IMG/VR virus record: IMGVR_UViG_3300037468_000146
Location: 1-24,583 of that record
From: a virus
Direction: 5' to 3' (one strand)
Length of the DNA stretch: 24,583 nt
Positions within the stretch are counted from its first letter, which is position 1; each line of letters opens with the position of its first letter. Shown here in pieces: positions 3,021-24,583 of the stretch. Position numbers and translations under genes: made by a program. The notes beneath the pieces were generated by a model. That model saw nothing but the letters and a program-made list of their open reading frames with translations, was not told the origin of the DNA and did not search any database.

Positions 3021-4985
3021 ATGGCAGGCTTCATTCGGCGGTACGGCTACTTCCCGACCCAGCAGGTCATCCAGCAGATCGAAGGCGTCGTCATCGTCGA
3101 CACGCCGCCCCCGCAGTCGATTCAGGGCGTCAACACGGGCGTCGTCGGCATGGTGGGTGAGTTCGCGGACGTCACCTACGCGACGAGCGTGGACGGCACC
3201 GGCTCGGTGACCACCAAGATTCAGCCGGTCGAGGTCGTGACCGCGCAGGACATGCTCAACAAGGTCGGCGGCTGGGACCCGACGCTGGGCGATTTCGGCG
3301 CGGACGACGGCAACGGCTACTTCGCCGTGAGCGGGAAGATCTTCTCGCGGCTCATCCTCGCGCCCATCAACAACGCCTCAAGCAAGGCGATGCGGATGTA
3401 CCGCGAGCTGCCGCTGTCGCAGAGCGCCTCGGTCGCCTCGGCCAACCCGCAGATGCAGGCGGCGTCGGTCTCCGCTGGGGCGCAGTTCACCTACAGCACG
3501 CAGACGGTGCTATCGGCGAAGCGCGTGCAGTTCACCGCCGATGCGCCCATCGCCATCGGCACGAACGGCGTCCTCTCGACGGCGACCGCGGTGACGCAGA
3601 CGTTCACCTCGAGCGGCGCGGACTTCGCGGCGGCGAACGTGAAGGTCGGTGACGCGCTCGTCCTCGGCCACAGCGCCACGGGCGACTACGGCACCTACCG
3701 CATCACGGCGGTCGGGACGACGACGCTCACCGTCCAGAAGCTCGACGGGGCTTCGTGGACTCCGGCGGGAACGTCGGGCCTCGTCTACCGCGTTCACCCG
3801 GCGGCGACGTTCGACACAGGCGGCAACTACGCCCTCGCGGACAACGCGGGCTGCACCGTCATGGCGCGCCCCACGGTGTCGACCATCGTGGACGGCACCA
3901 TCTGCTCGAGCACGCTGTCGGGTGCGAGCGTCCCGGTGGCTGCCGGTGCGTGGGATCCGCTCTCCGGCCTCAAGTTCACCGCGCAGGCGGGCGATGTCAC
4001 CTACACCGCCGCCTTGCAGGCGCCGAACGCCGCGCAGAGCGCGACGATGGACGCGGCCTACCAGCTCGCCATCGACGGCTTCCTCGCTGACGCCGACCCG
4101 ACGCGCGACGTGAGCATCATCTTCTCGGCGCGCACCAGCGCGACGATCCGGCAGTACCTGTACCAGCACGTTCAGTCGGCCAGCGCGCAGGGTCGTGGGC
4201 GTGTCGCGTGCATCAGCCCGAGCCTGACGACGGTGAGCGAGGACACGGTCATCGGCAACGCCTCGCCGGGTGTCGGTGCCACGCGGAGCGAGCGCGTCAT
4301 CTACAACTGGCCGGGCGTGACGGTGCAGCAGCAGGCTGCGGTCACTTCGTCGTCGAGCCTCAAGCGCGCCAACGGCACCTACAACCTCGGCAGCGGTCTG
4401 CTCGACACGCGCACCGACGGCTTCATGGCGTCCATCCTGTCGAACCTCGCCAGCGAGCGGAACCCCGGACAGGCGACCGACCCGGTGCCGGTCTGCCTCG
4501 CGCCGGTCCTCGGCTTCCAGAGCGGCGACCTCGCCTCGTTCAAGATGGCGGACTACATCCGCTTCAAGCAGTACGGCATCAGCGCCATCCGCTTCGACCG
4601 TGGCGGCGTGAAGGTGTTCCAGTCAGGCATCACCTCGAGCCTCACCAGCGGGCAGACCAACATCAACCGCCGCCGCATGGCTGACGAAATCGAGGACAGC
4701 CTTGCGGAAGCGTGGCTGCCCCTGACCAAGCAGGTCATGACCCAGCAGCTCCGCGACAATATCGACGCGGAGACGGTGGCCTACTTGGCGGGTCTCCAGT
4801 CGCCCACGAACCCTTCGGCGCAGCGCATCGAGGCCTACTCGGTCGACAGCACCAGCGGGAACACGCCGGAGCTGCTTGCGGCTGGCATCTACGTCGTCAT
4901 CGTCCGCGTGAAGATGCTGGCGACCGCCGACGAGATCGTGCTGCAAGCCGAGATCGGTCCCGGCGTGAACATCGTGGCGCAGTAG
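3021..4985 (+). CDS. Contractile tail sheath protein, 654 aa
   Basis: Start ATG 3021 sits behind GGAGG (3008-3012). The C-terminal third is sheath-like: MADYIRFKQYGISAIRF, then RRRMADEIEDSLAEAW and LTKQVMTQQLRDNIDAETV, then a final beta hairpin ending LQAEIGPGVNI. Sheath proteins assemble around the tube and contract to drive it through the envelope; the C-terminal region forms the inner handshake layer. At 654 residues it is longer than common sheaths of about 400-500. Residues about 155-260 form an extra beta-rich domain (VKVGDALVLGHSATGDYGTY, then ITAVGTTTLTVQKL) of a kind also seen in fibre proteins, presumably on the outer face. The 29-bp gap downstream contains only the next ribosome site. 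Confidence in the sheath call is high. Confidence 0.9.
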   Translation: MAGFIRRYGYFPTQQVIQQIEGVVIVDTPPPQSIQGVNTGVVGMVGEFADVTYATSVDGTGSVTTKIQPVEVVTAQDMLNKVGGWDPTLGDFGADDGNGYFAVSGKIFSRLILAPINNASSKAMRMYRELPLSQSASVASANPQMQAASVSAGAQFTYSTQTVLSAKRVQFTADAPIAIGTNGVLSTATAVTQTFTSSGADFAAANVKVGDALVLGHSATGDYGTYRITAVGTTTLTVQKLDGASWTPAGTSGLVYRVHPAATFDTGGNYALADNAGCTVMARPTVSTIVDGTICSSTLSGASVPVAAGAWDPLSGLKFTAQAGDVTYTAALQAPNAAQSATMDAAYQLAIDGFLADADPTRDVSIIFSARTSATIRQYLYQHVQSASAQGRGRVACISPSLTTVSEDTVIGNASPGVGATRSERVIYNWPGVTVQQQAAVTSSSSLKRANGTYNLGSGLLDTRTDGFMASILSNLASERNPGQATDPVPVCLAPVLGFQSGDLASFKMADYIRFKQYGISAIRFDRGGVKVFQSGITSSLTSGQTNINRRRMADEIEDSLAEAWLPLTKQVMTQQLRDNIDAETVAYLAGLQSPTNPSAQRIEAYSVDSTSGNTPELLAAGIYVVIVRVKMLATADEIVLQAEIGPGVNIVAQ

Positions 4986-5014: not shown

Positions 5015-5725
5015 ATGGCACGCACTCTCATTCGGAACATCAGCGGCGACGATCTGACGCTGCCGCTCCCCTACACAGGAGTCCTGCTCGGCGGCGAGGC
5101 GACGGTCGTCGCGGACACCGCCGCGCAGGTCACCGCGTTCCTCGGTGGCGCAGACCAGATTCGCAACGTCTGGCAGATCGACGAGGTGTCCGACGGCAAC
5201 CCGCTGGGGCCGTATCAGCGGTCCACCGCTGCCGGGCACATCGCGGAGTCGCTGGAAAAGCTCGAAGTGCCGCTGTCGGTCAACGGGCAGAAGGTCACGA
5301 ACCTCGGCGCTCCGACGGCTGGTACTGACGCGGCGACCAAGACCTACGTCGACTCGCAGGTCGGCGGAGGTGCCATCACTGCGCTGGCGGGCAGCGTTCA
5401 GCCGCCCGCTGGGTCGGGGCCGTTCGCCGCAGGCACGCCGGTTGGCATCAGCACGGCGACGGGTGCGCTGGTGGCGTGCGACGCGCTCCTCCCAGCCACC
5501 TTCCCGTGCATCGGCATCTGGACCGCCGACTCTTTCATCCGCATCGGCGGGGTGGAAGCTATCGCCGGTCACGCTGCTGGGTCGCTGCTCTACGTCGGGC
5601 AGGGCGGCGGCCTCACGGCTACTCGGCCCTCGACGCCGGGAGCCATCGCCCAGCTGGTCGCTTCCGGACTGGCTGGCGGCGCGTCCATCTTCGTCGTGCC
5701 GGGCGGCTTGCAGGTGATCGTCTGA
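5015..5725 (+). CDS. Short tail fibre protein with YVD-type repeat, 236 aa
   Basis: ATG 5015 follows GGAGGTG (5003-5009). Residues 1-65 form a beta-rich N-terminal domain opening MARTLIRNISGDDLTLPLPY, a layout often seen at the base of phage fibre proteins. Residues 66-95 look like a short coiled coil (GHIAESLEKLEVPLSVNGQK). Next is NLGAPTAGTDAATKTYVD (about 96-113), the recurrent motif of long tail-fibre proteins that forms trimeric intertwined segments. The C-terminal 120 residues are a beta domain with LLYVGQGGGLTATRPSTPG near the end. It probably attaches to the tail and binds a surface glycan or presents other fibres. Its TGA overlaps the next start as TGATG. The target is unknown. Confidence 0.75.
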   Translation: MARTLIRNISGDDLTLPLPYTGVLLGGEATVVADTAAQVTAFLGGADQIRNVWQIDEVSDGNPLGPYQRSTAAGHIAESLEKLEVPLSVNGQKVTNLGAPTAGTDAATKTYVDSQVGGGAITALAGSVQPPAGSGPFAAGTPVGISTATGALVACDALLPATFPCIGIWTADSFIRIGGVEAIAGHAAGSLLYVGQGGGLTATRPSTPGAIAQLVASGLAGGASIFVVPGGLQVIV

Positions 5726-6870: not shown

Positions 6871-8061
6871 ATGTCAAAGCCCCTGCTGACCGGCGGCAAC
6901 GGAAAGAGCAACGAGTTCGTCGGCACGGCGAACGGGCAGGTGCCGACATGGAGCACTGCTGACGGGGGCCAGTGGTTCCCCGGCTCGCAGTCTTCGGGCG
7001 GCGGCGGCGGCGAGTTGTTCTACTTGAACAGCGGCATCGCGGCGACGGCCCCGACCACGAACCTGCCCTACACGGGCGGCTCGGGCGCAACCCTCGCGGA
7101 CTTCAACCCCGCACAGCTTTCGACGGTCTACGACGCCACGACGCAGACACGCACCACGCCGACGCTGCCCTCGAACGGCTCATGGCAGATCGTGCAGGGC
7201 TTCGTCACCGATGCCGCACTCAACCTGACGGCACTTCCTGCGGGCCTCTTTGAGTTCAACATTTGGGTGCAGGCGTCCTCCGGCGCAGGCCCGTCGCAGA
7301 CGCAGATGCGCGTGCGCGTCGGCAAGTACGACAGCTCCAACGTCCTCACCTACCTTTCGTCGTCGGACGCCGTCTACATCTACGACCCGACGACGCCGAC
7401 GCAGTACGTTCTGTCCGTTGTCATCGGGTCGAACACGCTGGCGACGACCGACCGGCTCTACGTCGAGATCAACGCGACAGCGACCGTGAACGGTCGCACG
7501 GCTACCTTCCACTTCGGCGCGGGCGAGCCTTCGCACGTTCACACGACCATTGTCGTCCCCATCAACCTTGCGGACGCAACGCAGGTGACCGGCATCCTGC
7601 CGACCGACAACGGCGGCACGGGCAAGGGAACTGGCTCGCTGCCCGCCATCAACACCGTCTTCGCGGGTGCGGCCTCGGGCAGCGCCGCGCTGCCGACCTT
7701 CCGCGCCCTCGTCTACGACGACATCAAGACGCTCATCCCCTACGACCTGCCGGTCGAGATTCCCGGCACTCCCGACACCAGCACCCGAGTCGTCAACTTC
7801 AAGGCGGTGCGTCCGTTCCGTCTCGCCGCCTCGGGGCATCAAGGCGGCTGCGCGGTGGCGAACCCCTCGACCAACACCAGCTTCACGGTGCAGAAGAACC
7901 TGTCCGGGACCGACACCATCACCTTCCAGAGCGGCGGCGGCTTCGCGTCCAGCATCACGCAGACGGACTTCGCCATCGGCGACCTGCTGACGGTGGAGAC
8001 GCCGAACGCCCTCAACAGCATGGACACGCCGTTCTTCACGCTCGCCATGACGCTGCTCTAG
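6871..8061 (+). CDS. Tail fibre protein with NGGTG repeat segment, 396 aa
   Basis: ATG 6871 follows GAGGTAG. The N-terminus (MSKPLLTGGNGKSNEFVG) is similar to that of the previous gene. Residues 45-50 are a poly-Gly hinge (GGGGGE). Residues 55-225 form a beta domain with FELNIW/RVRVGKYDSS-like strands, in outline like carbohydrate-binding jelly-roll modules. Residues about 231-255 contain VTGILPTDNGGTGKGTGSL, the classic motif of fibre shafts (VTGxLPxxNGGTG) that precedes a receptor-binding or chaperoned tip. The last 90 residues are a beta tip. The stop at 8059-8061 leads straight to a GGAGG for the next gene. A tail-fibre role is well supported by the motif; receptor unknown. Confidence 0.8.
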   Translation: MSKPLLTGGNGKSNEFVGTANGQVPTWSTADGGQWFPGSQSSGGGGGELFYLNSGIAATAPTTNLPYTGGSGATLADFNPAQLSTVYDATTQTRTTPTLPSNGSWQIVQGFVTDAALNLTALPAGLFEFNIWVQASSGAGPSQTQMRVRVGKYDSSNVLTYLSSSDAVYIYDPTTPTQYVLSVVIGSNTLATTDRLYVEINATATVNGRTATFHFGAGEPSHVHTTIVVPINLADATQVTGILPTDNGGTGKGTGSLPAINTVFAGAASGSAALPTFRALVYDDIKTLIPYDLPVEIPGTPDTSTRVVNFKAVRPFRLAASGHQGGCAVANPSTNTSFTVQKNLSGTDTITFQSGGGFASSITQTDFAIGDLLTVETPNALNSMDTPFFTLAMTLL

Positions 8062-8070
8062 GAGGCCGCG

Positions 8071-8367
8071 ATGCCCCTGCTCCGCTACCAGCGGTACAAG
8101 ACCGGATCGCTGCCGATCATCACCACCTACGCGCAGGAACTCGACGACTTTCGCATCGGCGGCTACATCGAGTTCGACTTCGGCAGCATTTCTCCTGCGT
8201 CGTGGTCCGTGGGGAACTGGGTGTTCCTGACCTATGCCACCGCCGATTCGTCGGTCACGCAGCAGAACCTCAACGACTATGCAACGGTGGCGGCTCCTCC
8301 CGGCTTCACCGCTGGCGCCCCGTTCCTCGACGTTCCGGGCAAGCGCATCCTCATCACGTTGACGTAG
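8071..8367 (+). CDS. Small fibre-cassette protein of unknown function, 98 aa
   Basis: ATG 8071 follows TAGGAGG with ideal spacing. The sequence is beta-rich and aromatic (RYQRYKTGSLPIITTYAQEL, YIEFDFGSI, SWSVGNWVFLTYA), with no Cys, no signal peptide and no membrane helix. It lies between a fibre gene and the large repeat protein, with nine- and ten-base gaps on the two sides, so it is clearly part of the same unit. It may be a small capping or docking module for its neighbour. I do not recognise a family. Confidence 0.7.
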   Translation: MPLLRYQRYKTGSLPIITTYAQELDDFRIGGYIEFDFGSISPASWSVGNWVFLTYATADSSVTQQNLNDYATVAAPPGFTAGAPFLDVPGKRILITLT

Positions 8368-8377
8368 GAGCAGGACG

Positions 8378-11167
8378 ATGGCGCTGACCAGCTACTTCAA
8401 GGCCGACAACACCTCGCTTCTGAACAACGTGGTGTCGTGGTCGGCGACTCCTGTTCCCGGACCGCCTCCGTCGTCGCCAAACTCACAAGCGGTGTGGGAC
8501 TCGCGCATCTTGTCGGCGCGTACGGCGCAGCCCGGTGCATCAACAACGTGGGGCAAGATTCTCGTCACCAACCCTGCTGGGCTTTGCACCATTCAAGCTC
8601 AGACCGGCGCTCTCATCACGCTCACGCCGACCGACCCCGAAGCGGCGGGTGTCGGCATTGAACTGACCAGCGCAGGCACGCAGAACTTCCTCATCACCAA
8701 CAACGTCGCCCTCGGTTCCTCGCAAGAGTGGAAGGTCGCCGCTGGTCGGCTGCTGGATGTACGCAGCGTCATCTCGGGCGCGACCTCATCGCTCATCAAG
8801 ACGGATGCCGGTACGCTCAACCTCGGGACAGGCGTCAGCACGTTCGGCAGCGGCGGCGGGCAGAGTTTCACCGCACGCGGTGGTCTCACCATCGTAGGCA
8901 GCAATAACTCGCTCGGTGCCGCCGCAAACACGGTCGTCGTTGAGAGCGGCGCGGCCATCCAAATCTCCACGGCCACGCCCGCGCAGACGGTGTTCAACGT
9001 CTCCGGCCCGGGCCTTTCGGGCATCAGCTACGGAGCCATCTCCAGCGACACCTCGGGCTGGGCAAACACCAAGACCATCACCGCGCAGTCGGACAACACG
9101 GTCATCGGATTCCGGGGCGGCGGCGCGTTCCAGATGCGCCTCGCCGTGGCTGCTGGCGTTACTGCCATCACGCTGAACGGTGAGAACGCCGCGCTGTCGG
9201 ACAACAGCGGCTACACCATGACCGGCGGAGCGTCGACCTACAACGCCACCGTCACGCTGGTCAGCTTCGCCTACAACGGCACCCTGCCTGTCGGCATCAA
9301 GTACAGCATCGGCTCGGCAGCAAATGTCACCGACGCGCCCAGCAGCGGCGGCGCAGGTCTCGGCAACCTCGGGAACACCATCATCGTCTCGGCCTCCGGT
9401 GGCCTGATGTCCGCGTCTGCCAGCGGCACCTTCAATCGGAACTACACCTTCGTCGGGCGTGCGCTGAACAACGGCCAGCCCAATATTTACAGCCACTTCA
9501 AATGCTCCAACACCGGCAACAGCACGACCACCTTTGCCGGTAGGCTCACGTTCCAAGGAACCTCCAGCGATTGGGTCCAGTTCACCGGCACCAATCTTCG
9601 GACCTCCATCTACCGCTTCGTGAGCGGCTGCATCATCGAAGGGCAGACCAAGTTCGTCGTCGGCAGCGCCGCTTTCGCGGTCACTTCGGACTGCACAGCG
9701 CAGTTTGACAGCGGTGTGGACCTCACAGGGTTCTACGGCCCGCTCTACGTCGCCAACATCAACTATGGCACCGCGTTCCCCAACGAAAACGCGGTTGTCT
9801 ACGTCGATGGAAACCAGACCTACATCGACAACACCTCGGGCGGCGCACTCACAGTTCGGCACAGCAGCTACACGAACGACAACGCGGACTTCCTGTTCGT
9901 CGGCACCAACCCGCTCATCCTGAGTGGCCCCGCAGCAGGACCGGCAGCAGAGTGGTCAGGTAGCATCAACGCCGCAGCAGGGTGGACCAACTCCAGCGCC
10001 AACCTGCTGACGCTCGACTTCAACTTCGGTGCGTCCGCGACTGCCGGTGCCTTCATCAAGAACGGTACTGGCCCCTTGGCCCTCAAGGGCAACAACACCG
10101 CGTTCACCGTACTCACGCACAACGCCGGGAGCCTGTACCTCAACAGCGCGGGGTCCGCTGGCCCCCCTGCCGCCACGATGGGGATGGGCGCGGCCACCCT
10201 CGACAACACCTCGGGCGTCGATATTGACCTGATTGCCGCCGGGCAGTTCAACTTGGTAGGTGCCGGTTTCACATGGGGAGGCACGGGAAATCTGTACCGT
10301 GCCTCCGGCGTGTCTTACGGCACCTCCCGAACCATCACATTCACGACCAGTGGCACGAAGACCCTCAAGTTTGCCAGCTGGCTGGCGTCCGGTTCGCCGC
10401 AACTCAACGTCGGAGGCGGTGCGACGGGAACGACCAGCCGCCTCCACATCGTAGGAGCCAACGGCAGTACCGCCACGGCATCGTCGGTCACGGCGGGCTA
10501 CCTCAAGGTGGGCAACGCATCAGGACTTGGTGCGGTTGGCTCGACGACCGCATGGACGGTGACGACCGGCGCGTGCATCGAACTGGATGGCGTCACCATC
10601 CCCTCCAGCAAGAACGGGTCGTCGCTTACCGGAGATGGCCCCACCGGCACCTCGCATGGCGTGCTGCGCTCCACGAGCACGACGGCGCCAAGCGAATGGC
10701 GCGGCTCTCTCGTTTTCAACAGCACGGCGGGTGGGCGCATCACCGCCGCCCCACAGACGACGCTCACGCTCTCCGATGCCACCTACTTGGTCATCGAGGG
10801 GCCGTTGGCGAGCAGCTGCCCTGCCTTCTTCGATGCGAACCTCGACGCGACCCTCAACGTCAACCGCCGGTTCGCTGCCACCATCGGAGCAGTCACCTGC
10901 GGGCAGGCGAACGGCACGGGTCGAGTCGTCCTTTCCCGTGCCAATCAGCACACGGGCAAGCTCACCTGCGCCGCAGGGACGACGGCGCTCACGAACACGA
11001 ACGCCGCCGGTCCCGCCGCTACGGGAGCGGGCGTGGATGTGAACGCGGGCGCGACTCTTGCCGTGGAGGTCGCCAGCACCTACAAGGCCGTCTTCCCCGG
11101 CACGACGAAGCTGGGCAGCAGCTTCGGCAGCCCCGCCGCCAAGGCAATCTTCCGCATCGGCGCGTAG
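8378..11167 (+). CDS. Large beta-solenoid adhesin with autotransporter-like repeats, 929 aa
   Basis: ATG 8378 follows GGAGCAGGA. The protein is rich in Thr, Ser, Gly, Asn and Ala, poor in Lys and Glu, and without signal peptide or membrane segment. At least four segments follow the passenger-associated-transport-repeat pattern (GxGxLxLxGxNxxxG..V..G.L.VG..xxLGxxx..V.V..GA.L): about 139-190 (LTIVGSNNSLGAAANTVVV), 560-615 (IKNGTGPLALKGNNTAF), 690-740 (YLKVGNASGLGAVGSTTAW) and 845-900 (VVLSRANQHTGKLTCAAG). Such repeats fold as right-handed beta-helices in bacterial autotransporters, where they extend from the cell. Here there is no beta-barrel translocator or secretion signal, and the gene is inside a phage tail module, so a tail-borne adhesin or spike is the likely role. 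No catalytic residues are recognised, so a depolymerase is possible but unproven. Confidence 0.75.
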   Translation: MALTSYFKADNTSLLNNVVSWSATPVPGPPPSSPNSQAVWDSRILSARTAQPGASTTWGKILVTNPAGLCTIQAQTGALITLTPTDPEAAGVGIELTSAGTQNFLITNNVALGSSQEWKVAAGRLLDVRSVISGATSSLIKTDAGTLNLGTGVSTFGSGGGQSFTARGGLTIVGSNNSLGAAANTVVVESGAAIQISTATPAQTVFNVSGPGLSGISYGAISSDTSGWANTKTITAQSDNTVIGFRGGGAFQMRLAVAAGVTAITLNGENAALSDNSGYTMTGGASTYNATVTLVSFAYNGTLPVGIKYSIGSAANVTDAPSSGGAGLGNLGNTIIVSASGGLMSASASGTFNRNYTFVGRALNNGQPNIYSHFKCSNTGNSTTTFAGRLTFQGTSSDWVQFTGTNLRTSIYRFVSGCIIEGQTKFVVGSAAFAVTSDCTAQFDSGVDLTGFYGPLYVANINYGTAFPNENAVVYVDGNQTYIDNTSGGALTVRHSSYTNDNADFLFVGTNPLILSGPAAGPAAEWSGSINAAAGWTNSSANLLTLDFNFGASATAGAFIKNGTGPLALKGNNTAFTVLTHNAGSLYLNSAGSAGPPAATMGMGAATLDNTSGVDIDLIAAGQFNLVGAGFTWGGTGNLYRASGVSYGTSRTITFTTSGTKTLKFASWLASGSPQLNVGGGATGTTSRLHIVGANGSTATASSVTAGYLKVGNASGLGAVGSTTAWTVTTGACIELDGVTIPSSKNGSSLTGDGPTGTSHGVLRSTSTTAPSEWRGSLVFNSTAGGRITAAPQTTLTLSDATYLVIEGPLASSCPAFFDANLDATLNVNRRFAATIGAVTCGQANGTGRVVLSRANQHTGKLTCAAGTTALTNTNAAGPAATGAGVDVNAGATLAVEVASTYKAVFPGTTKLGSSFGSPAAKAIFRIGA

Positions 11168-11188: not shown

Positions 11189-11470
11189 ATGGCCCTGCAA
11201 GGCAACCTGTCCGAAGACCGCAACATCTACATCTTCGACTTCCCGGCGTGCTACGCCCGAGTGGTCGAGGTGCGCTCGCAGTACGTCTCCAGCTTCATCG
11301 ATGTCTGGTACTACGCGGACGCGGACGCCCGTGCGAAGGGCGGCGTGTGCGTGAAGACCGAGGTCGTCGCGCTGGCGACCGCCGACCTCCCCCCGGCGTC
11401 GAACCCCATCGAGCAGGGCTACCTGTACCTCAAGACGCTGCCCGAGTTCGCGGGCTGGATTGATGTCTAG
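11189..11470 (+). CDS. Small structural protein of unknown function, 93 aa
   Basis: ATG 11189 is preceded by AAGGAG (11178-11183). The sequence opens MALQGNLSEDRNIYIFDFPA and is a compact alpha/beta protein with strands VVEVRSQYVSSFIDVWYYAD and VCVKTEVVALA, ending in a strand after QGYLYLKTLPEF. Its opening resembles small beta proteins placed beside phage tail-fibre genes, but I do not recognise a named family. It is the last but one gene of the fibre cassette. Confidence 0.65.
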   Translation: MALQGNLSEDRNIYIFDFPACYARVVEVRSQYVSSFIDVWYYADADARAKGGVCVKTEVVALATADLPPASNPIEQGYLYLKTLPEFAGWIDV

Positions 11471-11543: not shown

Positions 11544-11738
11544 ATGGCAGAGCAGCAGCAGGAACCGGGCATCAACCTCGGGCAGACCTACGGCATCACG
11601 ACGATGCTGTCATCGCTGATGGACATCCAGCAGGTCATCCGAAACATCCCGTCAATGGTCGCGCAGCTCGACGCGCTCAAGGCCGAGAACGAGAAGCTCA
11701 AGGCCGACCTCGCCGCTCTCGCGCCGAAGGCCGAGTAG
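11544..11738 (+). CDS. Short coiled-coil protein, 64 aa
   Basis: The chosen start is ATG 11544, eight bases behind AGGGAG (11532-11537). An in-frame ATG at 11463, overlapping the previous stop, would add 27 residues that are almost all Arg, Ala and Ser and look non-coding. Residues 30-60 are a short leucine-zipper-like heptad series (MVAQLDALKAENEKLKADL), so the protein should form a coiled-coil oligomer. There is no other feature. It could be a trimerisation or bridging factor for the fibres, but that is inference. A gap holding promoter- and terminator-like elements follows. Confidence 0.6.
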   Translation: MAEQQQEPGINLGQTYGITTMLSSLMDIQQVIRNIPSMVAQLDALKAENEKLKADLAALAPKAE

Positions 11739-11870: not shown

Positions 11871-11889
11871 CGCTTTCGGAGGGCGCGAC

Positions 11890-12339
11890 ATGGCGCAGCT
11901 GCAACGGATCAAGGGTCAGGAAGTCGAGGTCAATCTGCTGGTGGACGGCGTGCCGCAGGACTCGCTCAACGCGGTCCGCAGCTTCACCGTCACGCCCCGC
12001 TTCGAACTGAAGGAGGAGCAGTACCTCGGTGAGACGTCGATGCGATTCGACGAGATGTTCACCGGCGTCTCCTTCAACATGGAGCTCAACTTCGCGGACG
12101 CAGGTGTGTTCCGCTTCATGACCGCCGTGAAGGAGCGAGCGCAGCGCCGCACGCCCGGCACGGTCGTCAACCTCAAGGCCACGCTGAACTACCCGAGCGG
12201 CAACGGTCGACGGACGCGCATCGTGCTGAAGGACTGCTTCTTCGGCGACATGGCGACGGCGTTCGGGAGCCGTGGCGACTACGGCACGTTCAGCATCGAC
12301 GGACGGGCGCAAGACATCGAGCTGCTGGGCACGGTCTAA
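11890..12339 (+). CDS. Tail tube protein, 149 aa
   Basis: ATG 11890 follows CGGAGGG (11877-11883). The small, beta-rich sequence fits a contractile-tail tube protein: an opening strand (LQRIKGQEVEVNLLVDGVPQ), a mid-protein loop (FELKEEQYLGETSMRFDEMF), and paired strands (GVSFNMELNFADAG, RTRIVLKDCFFGD) ending in ELLGTV. Size matches known tubes of 140-170 residues, and it lies immediately before the chaperone and tape measure, as tubes do. It stacks as hexameric rings around the tape measure inside the sheath. What is odd is that the sheath gene lies almost 7 kb upstream rather than next to it. The strong hairpin before its ribosome site may tune expression. Confidence 0.8.
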   Translation: MAQLQRIKGQEVEVNLLVDGVPQDSLNAVRSFTVTPRFELKEEQYLGETSMRFDEMFTGVSFNMELNFADAGVFRFMTAVKERAQRRTPGTVVNLKATLNYPSGNGRRTRIVLKDCFFGDMATAFGSRGDYGTFSIDGRAQDIELLGTV

Positions 12340-12974: not shown

Positions 12975-14561
12975 ATGTCAGCCACCATCGAAGCCGTCCT
13001 TCGCCTCCGTGATCAACTGAGCGCCCCGCTGCGTTCTGCGGCGGGGTCGCTCACGGATGCGACCCAGAGCGTCAACTCGCTGGACAACAGCCTCAAGAAC
13101 GCGGCGGCGTCTGCGGACGGGATGAAGGGCAAGCTCGCCGGGGCGCTCGGTGCCATCGGCGTCGGCATCGGCTTCAAGGAGATCCTCTCCCTATCGAGCA
13201 ACTTCGAGGACACCGCGCTTTCCATCGCAGGCAACATCAAGGCGTTCGACCTCGCACCGACGTTCACCGAGGCGAAGGACGCCGCGTCGAAGGCGCTCGT
13301 CACCATCAACGACATGGCGGCGAAGCTCCCCGGCGAGGCTGAGGACTACATCCAAGTCTTCAAGACCGCGCTGCCTGCGGCCATCCGCTCAGGACTCACG
13401 GACATCAAGCAGGTGTCCGAGTTCACGTCGAAGCTGACGGCGGTCGCCGTGTCCAACCAGATCGACGCCGCGCAAGCTGGTGCGGACCTCATGCGGATGC
13501 TGTCCGGCCAAGCGGGCATGGACAACCGAACGTGGATGGCGCTCGCCCCGCACATCAAGGTGACGACCGACCTGCTGAAGCACAACTCGAAGGAGCTGAA
13601 GGGGCTGGGCGTAGGGTCCGAGATCGTCGCGGAGAAGTTCAACAAGCTAGACATCTCCGTGCGGCGCAACCTCATCGAGTCGGCGCTCGGGCGCTTCGAC
13701 GAGCAGATGAAGGACGCAGGCGACACCTACTCGTCCAAGATGGGCGAACTGACGAGCCGCGTGAAGGAGCTGCTGCGCCTCGCCTCGGAGCCGATGTTCG
13801 AGGCGGCGAAGGACGCGCTTACGAAGATCAACAAGTACCTCGAAGACAACAAGGATCTGCTGAAAGACCAGCTTCAGAACTTCATGCAGATCGCCACGGA
13901 CTACATCCCGAAGATCGCGGATGGCATCGGGTGGGTCGTTAAGCACGCCGAGGAAATCAAGGACGCAATGGTCGTGGCGATGGACCTGTGGATCGCCTCG
14001 ACCACGCTATCCGCGCTGAACAACGTGCTCGGCGTCTTCCAGAAAATGGCCGCTGCCGCCACCACCATCGGAGCCATGCAGCTTGGTACAGGTGGCGGAT
14101 ACGGACCCGCTATGACCGTCGGAACGCGCCTCGCATCGTGGGGGCGCATCGGGGCCGGGTACGGCGCGCGTGCACTTGCAGGCACTGCGAGCGCAGCAGC
14201 ACTCGGTGCTGGCGCGTTCCTGTACAGCAAGGAGGCCAACGCCGACGAAGACTTCCAGCTTGTGACTGCGCGGCAGCGCATGGAAGACCAGCGTGCGAAG
14301 GAGGAAGCTGCTGCGCTTGAAGCTGCCAACGCTGAACTCGAGGCGTCTGTCGCCGACCGCTTCAATCTCGACAAGTACAAGTCCCCCGAAAAGAAGCCGC
14401 CCAAGTTCGACTTCCGCAACTCGCGCTTCGACATCAAGCAGCAGTTCGCGGAAGGGTTCGACCAAGACCGCATCGCCGTGGCGTTCGCCAGCGACCTCGC
14501 CCGCGTCGGTGAGATGAAGCTCCAGTCCGCAGTCGGGATGCGGAGCGGGTTCGTGAGGTAG
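12975..14561 (+). CDS. Tail tape measure protein, 528 aa
   Basis: ATG 12975 follows GAGGAGC. The protein is long-helical, Ala/Lys/Asp-rich, with a hydrophobic stretch at 53-67 (KLAGALGAIGVGIGF) near the N-terminus and another at about 396-418 (ARALAGTASAAALGAGAF), as expected for tape measures that later enter the cell membrane. Residues 70-320 are helical, with TALPAAIRSGLTDIKQVSEF and the conserved-looking GADLMRMLSGQAGMDNRTW. The C-terminal 110 residues are charged and coiled-coil-like (QRMEDQRAKEEAAALEAANA). With about 1.5 angstrom per residue it would set a tail of roughly 80 nm. Position between chaperone and baseplate genes fits. No peptidase domain is seen. Confidence 0.85.
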   Translation: MSATIEAVLRLRDQLSAPLRSAAGSLTDATQSVNSLDNSLKNAAASADGMKGKLAGALGAIGVGIGFKEILSLSSNFEDTALSIAGNIKAFDLAPTFTEAKDAASKALVTINDMAAKLPGEAEDYIQVFKTALPAAIRSGLTDIKQVSEFTSKLTAVAVSNQIDAAQAGADLMRMLSGQAGMDNRTWMALAPHIKVTTDLLKHNSKELKGLGVGSEIVAEKFNKLDISVRRNLIESALGRFDEQMKDAGDTYSSKMGELTSRVKELLRLASEPMFEAAKDALTKINKYLEDNKDLLKDQLQNFMQIATDYIPKIADGIGWVVKHAEEIKDAMVVAMDLWIASTTLSALNNVLGVFQKMAAAATTIGAMQLGTGGGYGPAMTVGTRLASWGRIGAGYGARALAGTASAAALGAGAFLYSKEANADEDFQLVTARQRMEDQRAKEEAAALEAANAELEASVADRFNLDKYKSPEKKPPKFDFRNSRFDIKQQFAEGFDQDRIAVAFASDLARVGEMKLQSAVGMRSGFVR

Positions 14562-22693: not shown

Positions 22694-24583
22694 ATGGCCG
22701 TCACCGCGAACATTCAGATCAACGGCTTGCCGGGCAGCGACGACAACCTGCCGCTGTCCACGGCGGTATTCCTCACGAACGTCTCACCTGATCCGGTGTC
22801 CAGCTACCTGTGGGAGATCCTCACGCAGCCGCAGGGAACGAACACCGACCTGCTCTCGAGCAGCACGGCGGCGAATCCCCAGTTCACGCCGACGAAGGAG
22901 GGGAGCTACCTCATCCGGCTGACGGTCGACCAGTTCCTCCCGAGCGAGGCGTCTCAGCAGGTCATCGTCGGCGTGCGCGAGCTGGAGACGGATGACCGCA
23001 TCCCGGCAGCGGGCGAGACGACCGAGAACGACGGCACGACCGGCTGGGCGAACACGGCGGCGGACTACATCCTCCAGCGCGTGACGCGCCTCACGGACGC
23101 GGGCGCGTTCGTCGGGAAGGCGGGCGCGGCGGGCATCGTCAGCGGCACCGTCGTCGCGGCGTCCGGCGTGGCGACCATCGGCGCGGACCCGGCGAACCAG
23201 CGCGTCGTCCCGGTGTTCACCAGCGTCAACGGGACGATGGCAGGCATCGGCAACTACGAGCTGGCGGTCGCCATCGGTGCGGTCGTCGGCGGTGGCACTC
23301 CGGCAAGCGGCGCTCTGCTGCGCGTCCTCTACGCCGGGCTGGTGCAGGGCATCGCCTACCCCTCGAGCGCTCCAGCGGTGGGTGCTCCCGTCTACGTCGG
23401 GAACTCGGGGCTGCTGTCGCTCGCGGCAGGCACCTACACCCGCCCCTGCGGCACGGTCGCGGCAGTCGATACGGGCGCAGGGACGTTCGCGGTCTGGTTC
23501 GGCGGCGGCATCAGCAGCAGTGGGTCACCGAGCGGGCCTGCTGGCGGCATCCTCGGCTATCCGGGCAGCACCTACCCGAACCCGAATGGCCTATCGGCGG
23601 CAGCTGGTGCCATCCCGATTGAACCCGGTGCGGTTGAGGCGCGCTTTCAGCTGGACAGCGCCAACAGCAGCGCCACGGCACCGTCGCTCGTTTTCAAGGG
23701 CGCGGACAACACCGGCAGCGGTGCCGCTGGTGAAACGCGGCTGGAGGGCGGCAACAAAGGCACCAACGACGGCGGGTCTGTCTACGTCGAAGGCGCGACG
23801 ACAGGCGGCGCAGGTGGCCGTGCGGTCGTACAGGGCGGCAGCGCCAGCGAGGTTGGCGGTGTCGGCGGCGACAGCGTTGTCCAAGCAGGTGCGGGTGCTG
23901 TTTCGGGCGGCACGGCAGCGGTTGAGGGCGGTGAAGGTCTTTCGGGCGCTGGCGGCGCGGCATACCTTCGTGGCGGGTACTCGGGGTCAGGGCAGGGCGG
24001 CGCAGCCACGGTGGTGGGTGGCGAGAGCGACGATGACATTGGCGGTGACGCTACGGTCATCGGCGGCACACCAGCGGCTGGGTTCGCAGGCGGCAACGGC
24101 TACGTCCGTGGTGCGGACTCGCCTTCGGGGAGCGGCGGCAACGCGGGCGCGCTTGCCGGTGACGGCATTGCAGGTGGCGCTGCGCTTCTGGCCGCGGGCA
24201 ACGGAACCACCGGCAGCGGTGGTGCTTCCGAGGTTGTTGGCGGCAACAGCGCGGCAGACAACGGCGGCTTCGGCGCTGTCTACGGTGGCGGCGCGAGCGC
24301 GGCAGGAAAGATGTCCGGCAGCGCGAAGCTGGACGCCGGAACCGCAAGCGGTGCGGCAACTGCCGGAACCGCAGACGTCGGCGTGACGAACGCTTCGGCG
24401 GTCAACCTCGGACGCAGCGGTAAGCCTGTTCGCACCAACGGTCGCAACGTCGAGACGGCGGCGTCGGTCGCGCCTGTGGCGGCGGCGACGCTGCCGGTGA
24501 ACGCGGCGACCATCCTGCTCACGAACGCTGGACCGATTGGTCTGCTTGGCGCGCATCCGAACCTTCAGACCACCGACATCGAG
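22694..24583 (+). CDS. Fibre protein with PKD-like domain and glycine-rich repeats (3' end cut)
   Basis: ATG 22694 follows AAGGAG (22682-22687). All 630 codons to the window edge are open with no stop, so the protein is longer. Residues 1-95 are a PKD/Ig-like domain (SSYLWEILTQPQGTNTDL, FTPTKEGSYLIRLTVDQ). Residues 100-275 form a beta region ending in VYVGNSGLLSLAAGTYTRP, a module shared with other fibre genes here. Residues about 331-565 contain about fourteen tandem units of 13-17 residues with the pattern [x]aVxGGxxxxxGxGG, for example RAVVQGGSASEVGG, AAYLRGGYSGSGQGG, ASEVVGGNSAADNGG. These suggest a glycine-rich beta-solenoid or polyglycine-type shaft. After it begins a more ordinary beta sequence (PVAAATLPVNAATILLTNAG). 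A receptor-binding fibre or adhesin is likely. Confidence 0.75.
   Translation, partial: MAVTANIQINGLPGSDDNLPLSTAVFLTNVSPDPVSSYLWEILTQPQGTNTDLLSSSTAANPQFTPTKEGSYLIRLTVDQFLPSEASQQVIVGVRELETDDRIPAAGETTENDGTTGWANTAADYILQRVTRLTDAGAFVGKAGAAGIVSGTVVAASGVATIGADPANQRVVPVFTSVNGTMAGIGNYELAVAIGAVVGGGTPASGALLRVLYAGLVQGIAYPSSAPAVGAPVYVGNSGLLSLAAGTYTRPCGTVAAVDTGAGTFAVWFGGGISSSGSPSGPAGGILGYPGSTYPNPNGLSAAAGAIPIEPGAVEARFQLDSANSSATAPSLVFKGADNTGSGAAGETRLEGGNKGTNDGGSVYVEGATTGGAGGRAVVQGGSASEVGGVGGDSVVQAGAGAVSGGTAAVEGGEGLSGAGGAAYLRGGYSGSGQGGAATVVGGESDDDIGGDATVIGGTPAAGFAGGNGYVRGADSPSGSGGNAGALAGDGIAGGAALLAAGNGTTGSGGASEVVGGNSAADNGGFGAVYGGGASAAGKMSGSAKLDAGTASGAATAGTADVGVTNASAVNLGRSGKPVRTNGRNVETAASVAPVAAATLPVNAATILLTNAGPIGLLGAHPNLQTTDIE

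Follow-up and report, generated by a model that had tools for sequence, protein, structure and literature searches.

What would a protein with the repeats of bacterial autotransporter passengers do in the tail module of a phage? The window analysed here, the 24,583 nucleotides of IMG/VR virus record IMGVR_UViG_3300037468_000146, raises this question through a gene at 8378..11167 (plus strand), which encodes a 929-aa protein with segments resembling passenger-associated transport repeats (PATR). Receptor-binding proteins determine which bacteria a phage infects, and those of uncultured phages are mostly unrecognisable by sequence. Based on its repeats, a full-length relative, the predicted fold of residues 538-929 and its genomic setting, we consider it probable that the 929-aa protein is an exchangeable tail fibre or receptor-binding protein with a scaffold of PATR beta-helices, and that it would sit on the virion and bind the host.

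The preliminary description of this DNA had picked out four segments with the PATR pattern. Searched directly in the record, the Pfam PATR model PF12951 has its best match at 10910-10984 (17.2 bits, E 2.2e-4) and another at 10052-10099 (12.5 bits); neither reaches the curated Pfam cut-off of 27 bits, and a plain hmmscan of the 929-aa protein against Pfam and NCBIfam returns no PATR match. Since the Pfam model, at 30 residues, covers just the core of a longer unit, we built a long-unit profile of 113 columns from 626 domains, all from bacterial loci that a PATR consensus had retrieved. With this profile the 929-aa protein scores 33.0 bits, and four of its domains exceed 7 bits. Across 6,000 shuffled versions (2,000 each by residue, local block and dipeptide) the top score was -48.5 and none contained two or more domains above 7 bits; the reversed protein scores -59.5 bits, and no other ORF in the window exceeds 1.2 bits.

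The four PATR-like units lie on the plus strand at 8792..9100 (residues 139-241, 7.3 bits), 10055..10432 (residues 560-685, 19.6 bits), 10448..10780 (residues 691-801, 11.8 bits) and 10910..11089 (residues 845-904, 28.4 bits). The second and fourth are also picked up by the PF12951 search, and the third falls within residues 688-887, which align by blastp with a PATR protein from another phage contig (L006). The first has a matching unit in a full-length relative of 887 aa (L136:7911-10574) encoded by IMGVR_UViG_3300042301_003333, hereafter G004. This relative is 33% identical over 940 columns by tblastn (E 1.2e-58) and 37% by MAFFT; it reaches 50.0 bits with the long-unit profile, and its repeats (133-231, 527-617, 663-770 and 816-879) occupy positions matching those of the 929-aa protein. 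The scores against shuffles and these matching positions lead us to regard the four segments as real and homologous to PATR, each being too diverged for Pfam. Because single repeats fall under the Pfam cut-off, the 929-aa protein is best described as a diverged PATR homologue, short of Pfam-grade membership. The pattern seen in the preliminary description is thus borne out, with a repeat unit of approximately 110-160 residues that is longer than the motif given there; the PF12951 check proposed with it stays below threshold, while the bacterial long-unit profile gives a positive result.

A Gly/Ser/Thr/Ala/Asn-rich beta-solenoid could in principle have become PATR-like without common descent, and the biased composition of the 929-aa protein (G, S, T, A and N together approximately 0.57) as well as the sub-threshold single repeats would fit such convergence. 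However, shuffles that preserve local composition never come near the real score, the unit aligns in order across approximately 110 columns, and positional equivalents in three closely related backbones are strongly above the Pfam cut-off, which makes convergence highly improbable. Capture from a host and convergence had both been offered in the preliminary description; the long-unit alignment and the equivalents in related phages favour homology. Identity between residues 538-929 and bacterial loci is 21-30% in unit-level alignments. PATR proteins are abundant in Opitutae and related bacteria, as judged from the loci found with the PATR consensus, so that capture of the module from a bacterial adhesin is plausible.

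A single-sequence AlphaFold2 prediction of the whole protein was too poor for use (pLDDT 37.9). Residues 538-929 were modelled separately with a 61-row alignment that included 60 PATR segments drawn from loci of viruses and bacteria, yielding an all-beta model (pLDDT 73.8, pTM 0.73). Its neighbours among solved structures are HxuA, a beta-helical hemopexin-binding protein (top VIA-align Z of 12.9), Awp1, the AlgE4 epimerase, the Hbp passenger and an Ag43-type self-associating protein; the Foldseek E-values are not significant (best 2.9). The expectation of a beta-helix thus agrees with the nearest folds of this part, which are beta-helical passengers, and the model counts as supporting rather than decisive evidence because its alignment was itself chosen for PATR repeats and is biased towards a PATR-like fold. 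Stacking of diverged PATR units could extend a beta-helix along the full length of the protein.

Compared with the PATR proteins covered by PF12951 (autotransporters and large proteins of Opitutae and other bacteria), unit order and motifs are alike, whereas the 929-aa protein stays under the Pfam cut-off, has neither a barrel nor an evident signal peptide and is found in a phage tail context. No Pfam match to C-terminal beta-barrel translocator families was obtained, and the first 60 residues contain no hydrophobic stretch (Kyte-Doolittle 15-mer maximum 0.87, a crude test). Both absences, as well as the tail setting, had been noted from the sequence and hold up, the gene being encoded in the tail module among tail and fibre genes. 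On its left, all on the plus strand, are the tail sheath (3021..4985, phrog_23), a tail-fibre-type protein with the motif KVTNLGAP..GTDAATKTYVD (5015..5725; homologues within the same block), a tail-fibre protein (6871..8061, phrog_7049) whose termini match giant fibres (1060-2069 aa) of the relatives, and a 98-aa partner starting MPL..QRY (8071..8367). A 93-aa phrog_18037 protein (11189..11470, plus strand) follows directly, and a probable tail tube (11872..12339, plus strand; weak PF09393 match) forms the right border of the block, as the sheath forms the left. After the phrog_18037 gene, the window encodes a small protein (11547-11735) with a charged, coiled-coil-like C-terminus; the corresponding position in G004 encodes a small protein that has a single hydrophobic segment as well as a coiled-coil-like tail.

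As a query, the 929-aa protein has no sequence match among phages, viral or genome contigs, or PDB entries, and relatives were reached only via PATR-consensus and tape-measure queries. With the PATR consensus, matching ORFs, mostly without a barrel, were identified at 28 loci in IMG/VR contigs, with some contigs occurring twice. Two contigs, L094 and L101, have fibre and tape-measure homologues in common with the window; alignment of the tape-measure protein (12975..14561, plus strand, PHROG match) led to further relatives, and longer pieces of those records were then retrieved.

The window and 4 relatives (G001, G002, G006 and G007) share one gene order: sheath, fibre genes, partner, PATR gene, phrog_18037 homologue, tube and tape measure. 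The partner (89-99 aa in these relatives, 104 aa in G004) lies directly upstream of the PATR gene in all 6 phages with the block, and the phrog_18037 protein has homologues in all 5 of the others, that of G004 detected by tblastn. The PATR proteins of G001, G002, G006 and G007 measure 997, 1176, 771 and 756 aa and score 61.1, 48.1, 59.1 and 28.6 bits with PF12951, all above 27. G004 shares with the window the full-length PATR relative and an identical four-gene order; its block comprises segments like the 5015 gene product, a 1060-aa fibre, the partner, the PATR protein and the phrog_18037 homologue. In contrast to the window, however, this block is found not between sheath and tube but past the baseplate genes, behind a homologue of the window's 22694 gene, and the backbone is more distant. 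A place after the baseplate genes is usual for tail-fibre genes. In G003, G005 and G008 nothing separates the sheath gene from the tube gene behind it, and these records and G009, which may be fragments, contain no PF12951 match. The position in G004 and the adjacent sheath and tube genes in relatives lacking the block mark it as an optional insert whose position has changed between genomes. The 22694 gene itself (22694-24583) is long and cut by the contig end; it is 38-46% identical in several relatives and has no PHROG match.

The history of the PATR gene differs from that of its surroundings. Sheath identity between the window and G001, G002, G006 and G007 is 53-57%, and 43% for G004, whereas by tblastn the PATR gene matches G004 only, with no match to the PATR proteins of the other four. 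Because the closest sheaths accompany PATR proteins that escape tblastn, while the PATR relative resides with the distant sheath of G004, backbone and PATR gene are decoupled, which is the pattern expected for an exchanged tail-fibre block and not for a core structural gene.

The tail-fibre or receptor-binding reading thus draws on the fibre-gene neighbours, a divergence that outpaces the backbone, the move of the block to another place and the relatives in which it is missing. As a counterpoint, fibre genes are not usually located between sheath and tube, a slot that would suit a structural decoration as well. The PATR protein might instead be a spacer, i.e., a shaft or tail decoration that makes no receptor contact, with host binding left to another fibre such as the 6871-8061 product or that of the incomplete 22694 gene. 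The sheath-tube slot does lie among tail structural genes, and the block always contains a separate fibre gene. Yet these phages conserve their backbone structural genes well, whereas BLAST can no longer link the PATR proteins of the closest backbones to that of the window, and 4 relatives have no PATR protein at the sheath-tube place, so that we regard a purely structural role as rather unlikely. It is very unlikely that the protein acts away from the virion, as an intracellular or lysis-released product that targets cells or polymers in the surroundings of the infected cell: bacterial PATR modules belong to surface or secreted proteins and an endolysin-like gene lies close to the block in L094, but no signal peptide is evident (by hydropathy only), and the gene sits among fibre genes in 6 phages, in G004 directly after the baseplate genes.

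Under the tail-fibre reading, the carrier would be an uncultured contractile-tailed phage and the 929-aa protein an elongated tail-associated adhesin, with a beta-helical shaft or tip that contacts the host surface and repeats ultimately of bacterial origin. Fibre gene, 98-aa partner, PATR protein and phrog_18037 protein would form the exchangeable block. The partner accompanies the PATR gene in the relocated block too, which suggests that the two share a role in assembly or attachment, in which the partner and the C-terminal end of the PATR protein may both help. More tentatively, such proteins could represent a phage receptor-binding class derived from bacterial PATR adhesins, carried in an exchangeable four-gene block with the 89-104-aa partner as assembly factor or adaptor. 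If so, phages and bacteria would use one adhesin module on opposite sides of recognition. A PATR-based fibre would connect a bacterial surface-adhesin module with phage tails, and together with its recognisable small partner and conserved neighbours it would offer a way of finding such proteins among environmental phages.

Right-handed beta-helices are well known from phage tailspikes, such as the P22 tailspike and polysaccharide depolymerases. These are beta-helical adhesins on the tail, as proposed for the 929-aa protein, which, however, has no sequence match to tailspike families in PHROGs or Pfam. Searches of an open-access library turned up no publication that describes PATR repeats in phage tails. 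Nevertheless, PATR in tailed phages is not unheard of: a protein of an uncultured Caudovirales phage (A0A6J5M3L0, BFVD/UniProt) is already named 'Autotransporter-associated beta strand repeat', and its fold match to the 538-929 model is weak and not significant (E 6.3). With this entry, and with PATR proteins lacking a barrel in about two dozen IMG/VR contigs, the view of this protein as a lone novelty is not supported. Cultured examples appear to be missing, since there was no match among 50,697 named phage records in a search that filters low-complexity sequence and would detect long-unit PATRs like those of L006, L094, L101 and L116 at E < 1e-3, while a local control indicates that L095- and L011-type PATRs would be missed. 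A host search with the sheath gave no match in 388 Verrucomicrobiota genomes or in named phages; the genome part, run without a positive control, carries little weight.

Ten viral PATR proteins were scanned with Pfam; 8 are clearly above the PATR cut-off, a ninth barely so (28.6 versus 27), and none has a barrel match. We considered and rejected the possibility that L096 is a bacterial autotransporter in a viral contig: its N-terminus is signal-peptide-like, yet Pfam shows no barrel. A PHROG 'head closure Hc2' function for the PATR proteins of L094 and L101 was likewise set aside, as it stems from a single stretch of approximately 95 residues outside the clear PATR units. Other phage PATR proteins also adjoin tail genes. 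In one ORF, L103:3507-4121, a fibre-type domain and PATR are physically fused: a glycine-rich, fibre-like segment (YLVVAGGGGGG...GVVVVRY) continues directly into PATR repeats before the contig end cuts it. In one phage-contig protein (L006:955-4266), five PATR repeats are joined by a PA domain (PF02225) and a lectin-like-looking C-terminal part. A second PATR family in phages (L007, L009, L010, L013, L095, L100, L104 and L106-L110) has a conserved N-terminus (MKLTDSSAANVG...) and an equally conserved type of C-terminal domain. Its start often overlaps the stop codon of the upstream ORF, which in L013 matches tail proteins; in the same contig, a tape-measure gene lies downstream of the PATR gene. 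The window's own tape measure shares 40 residues near its C-terminus (479-518, 14409-14528) with that of L101 (L101:14465-16303) at 85% identity, compared to 32% in the best stretch elsewhere, so that this tail end may be either strongly constrained or recently exchanged.
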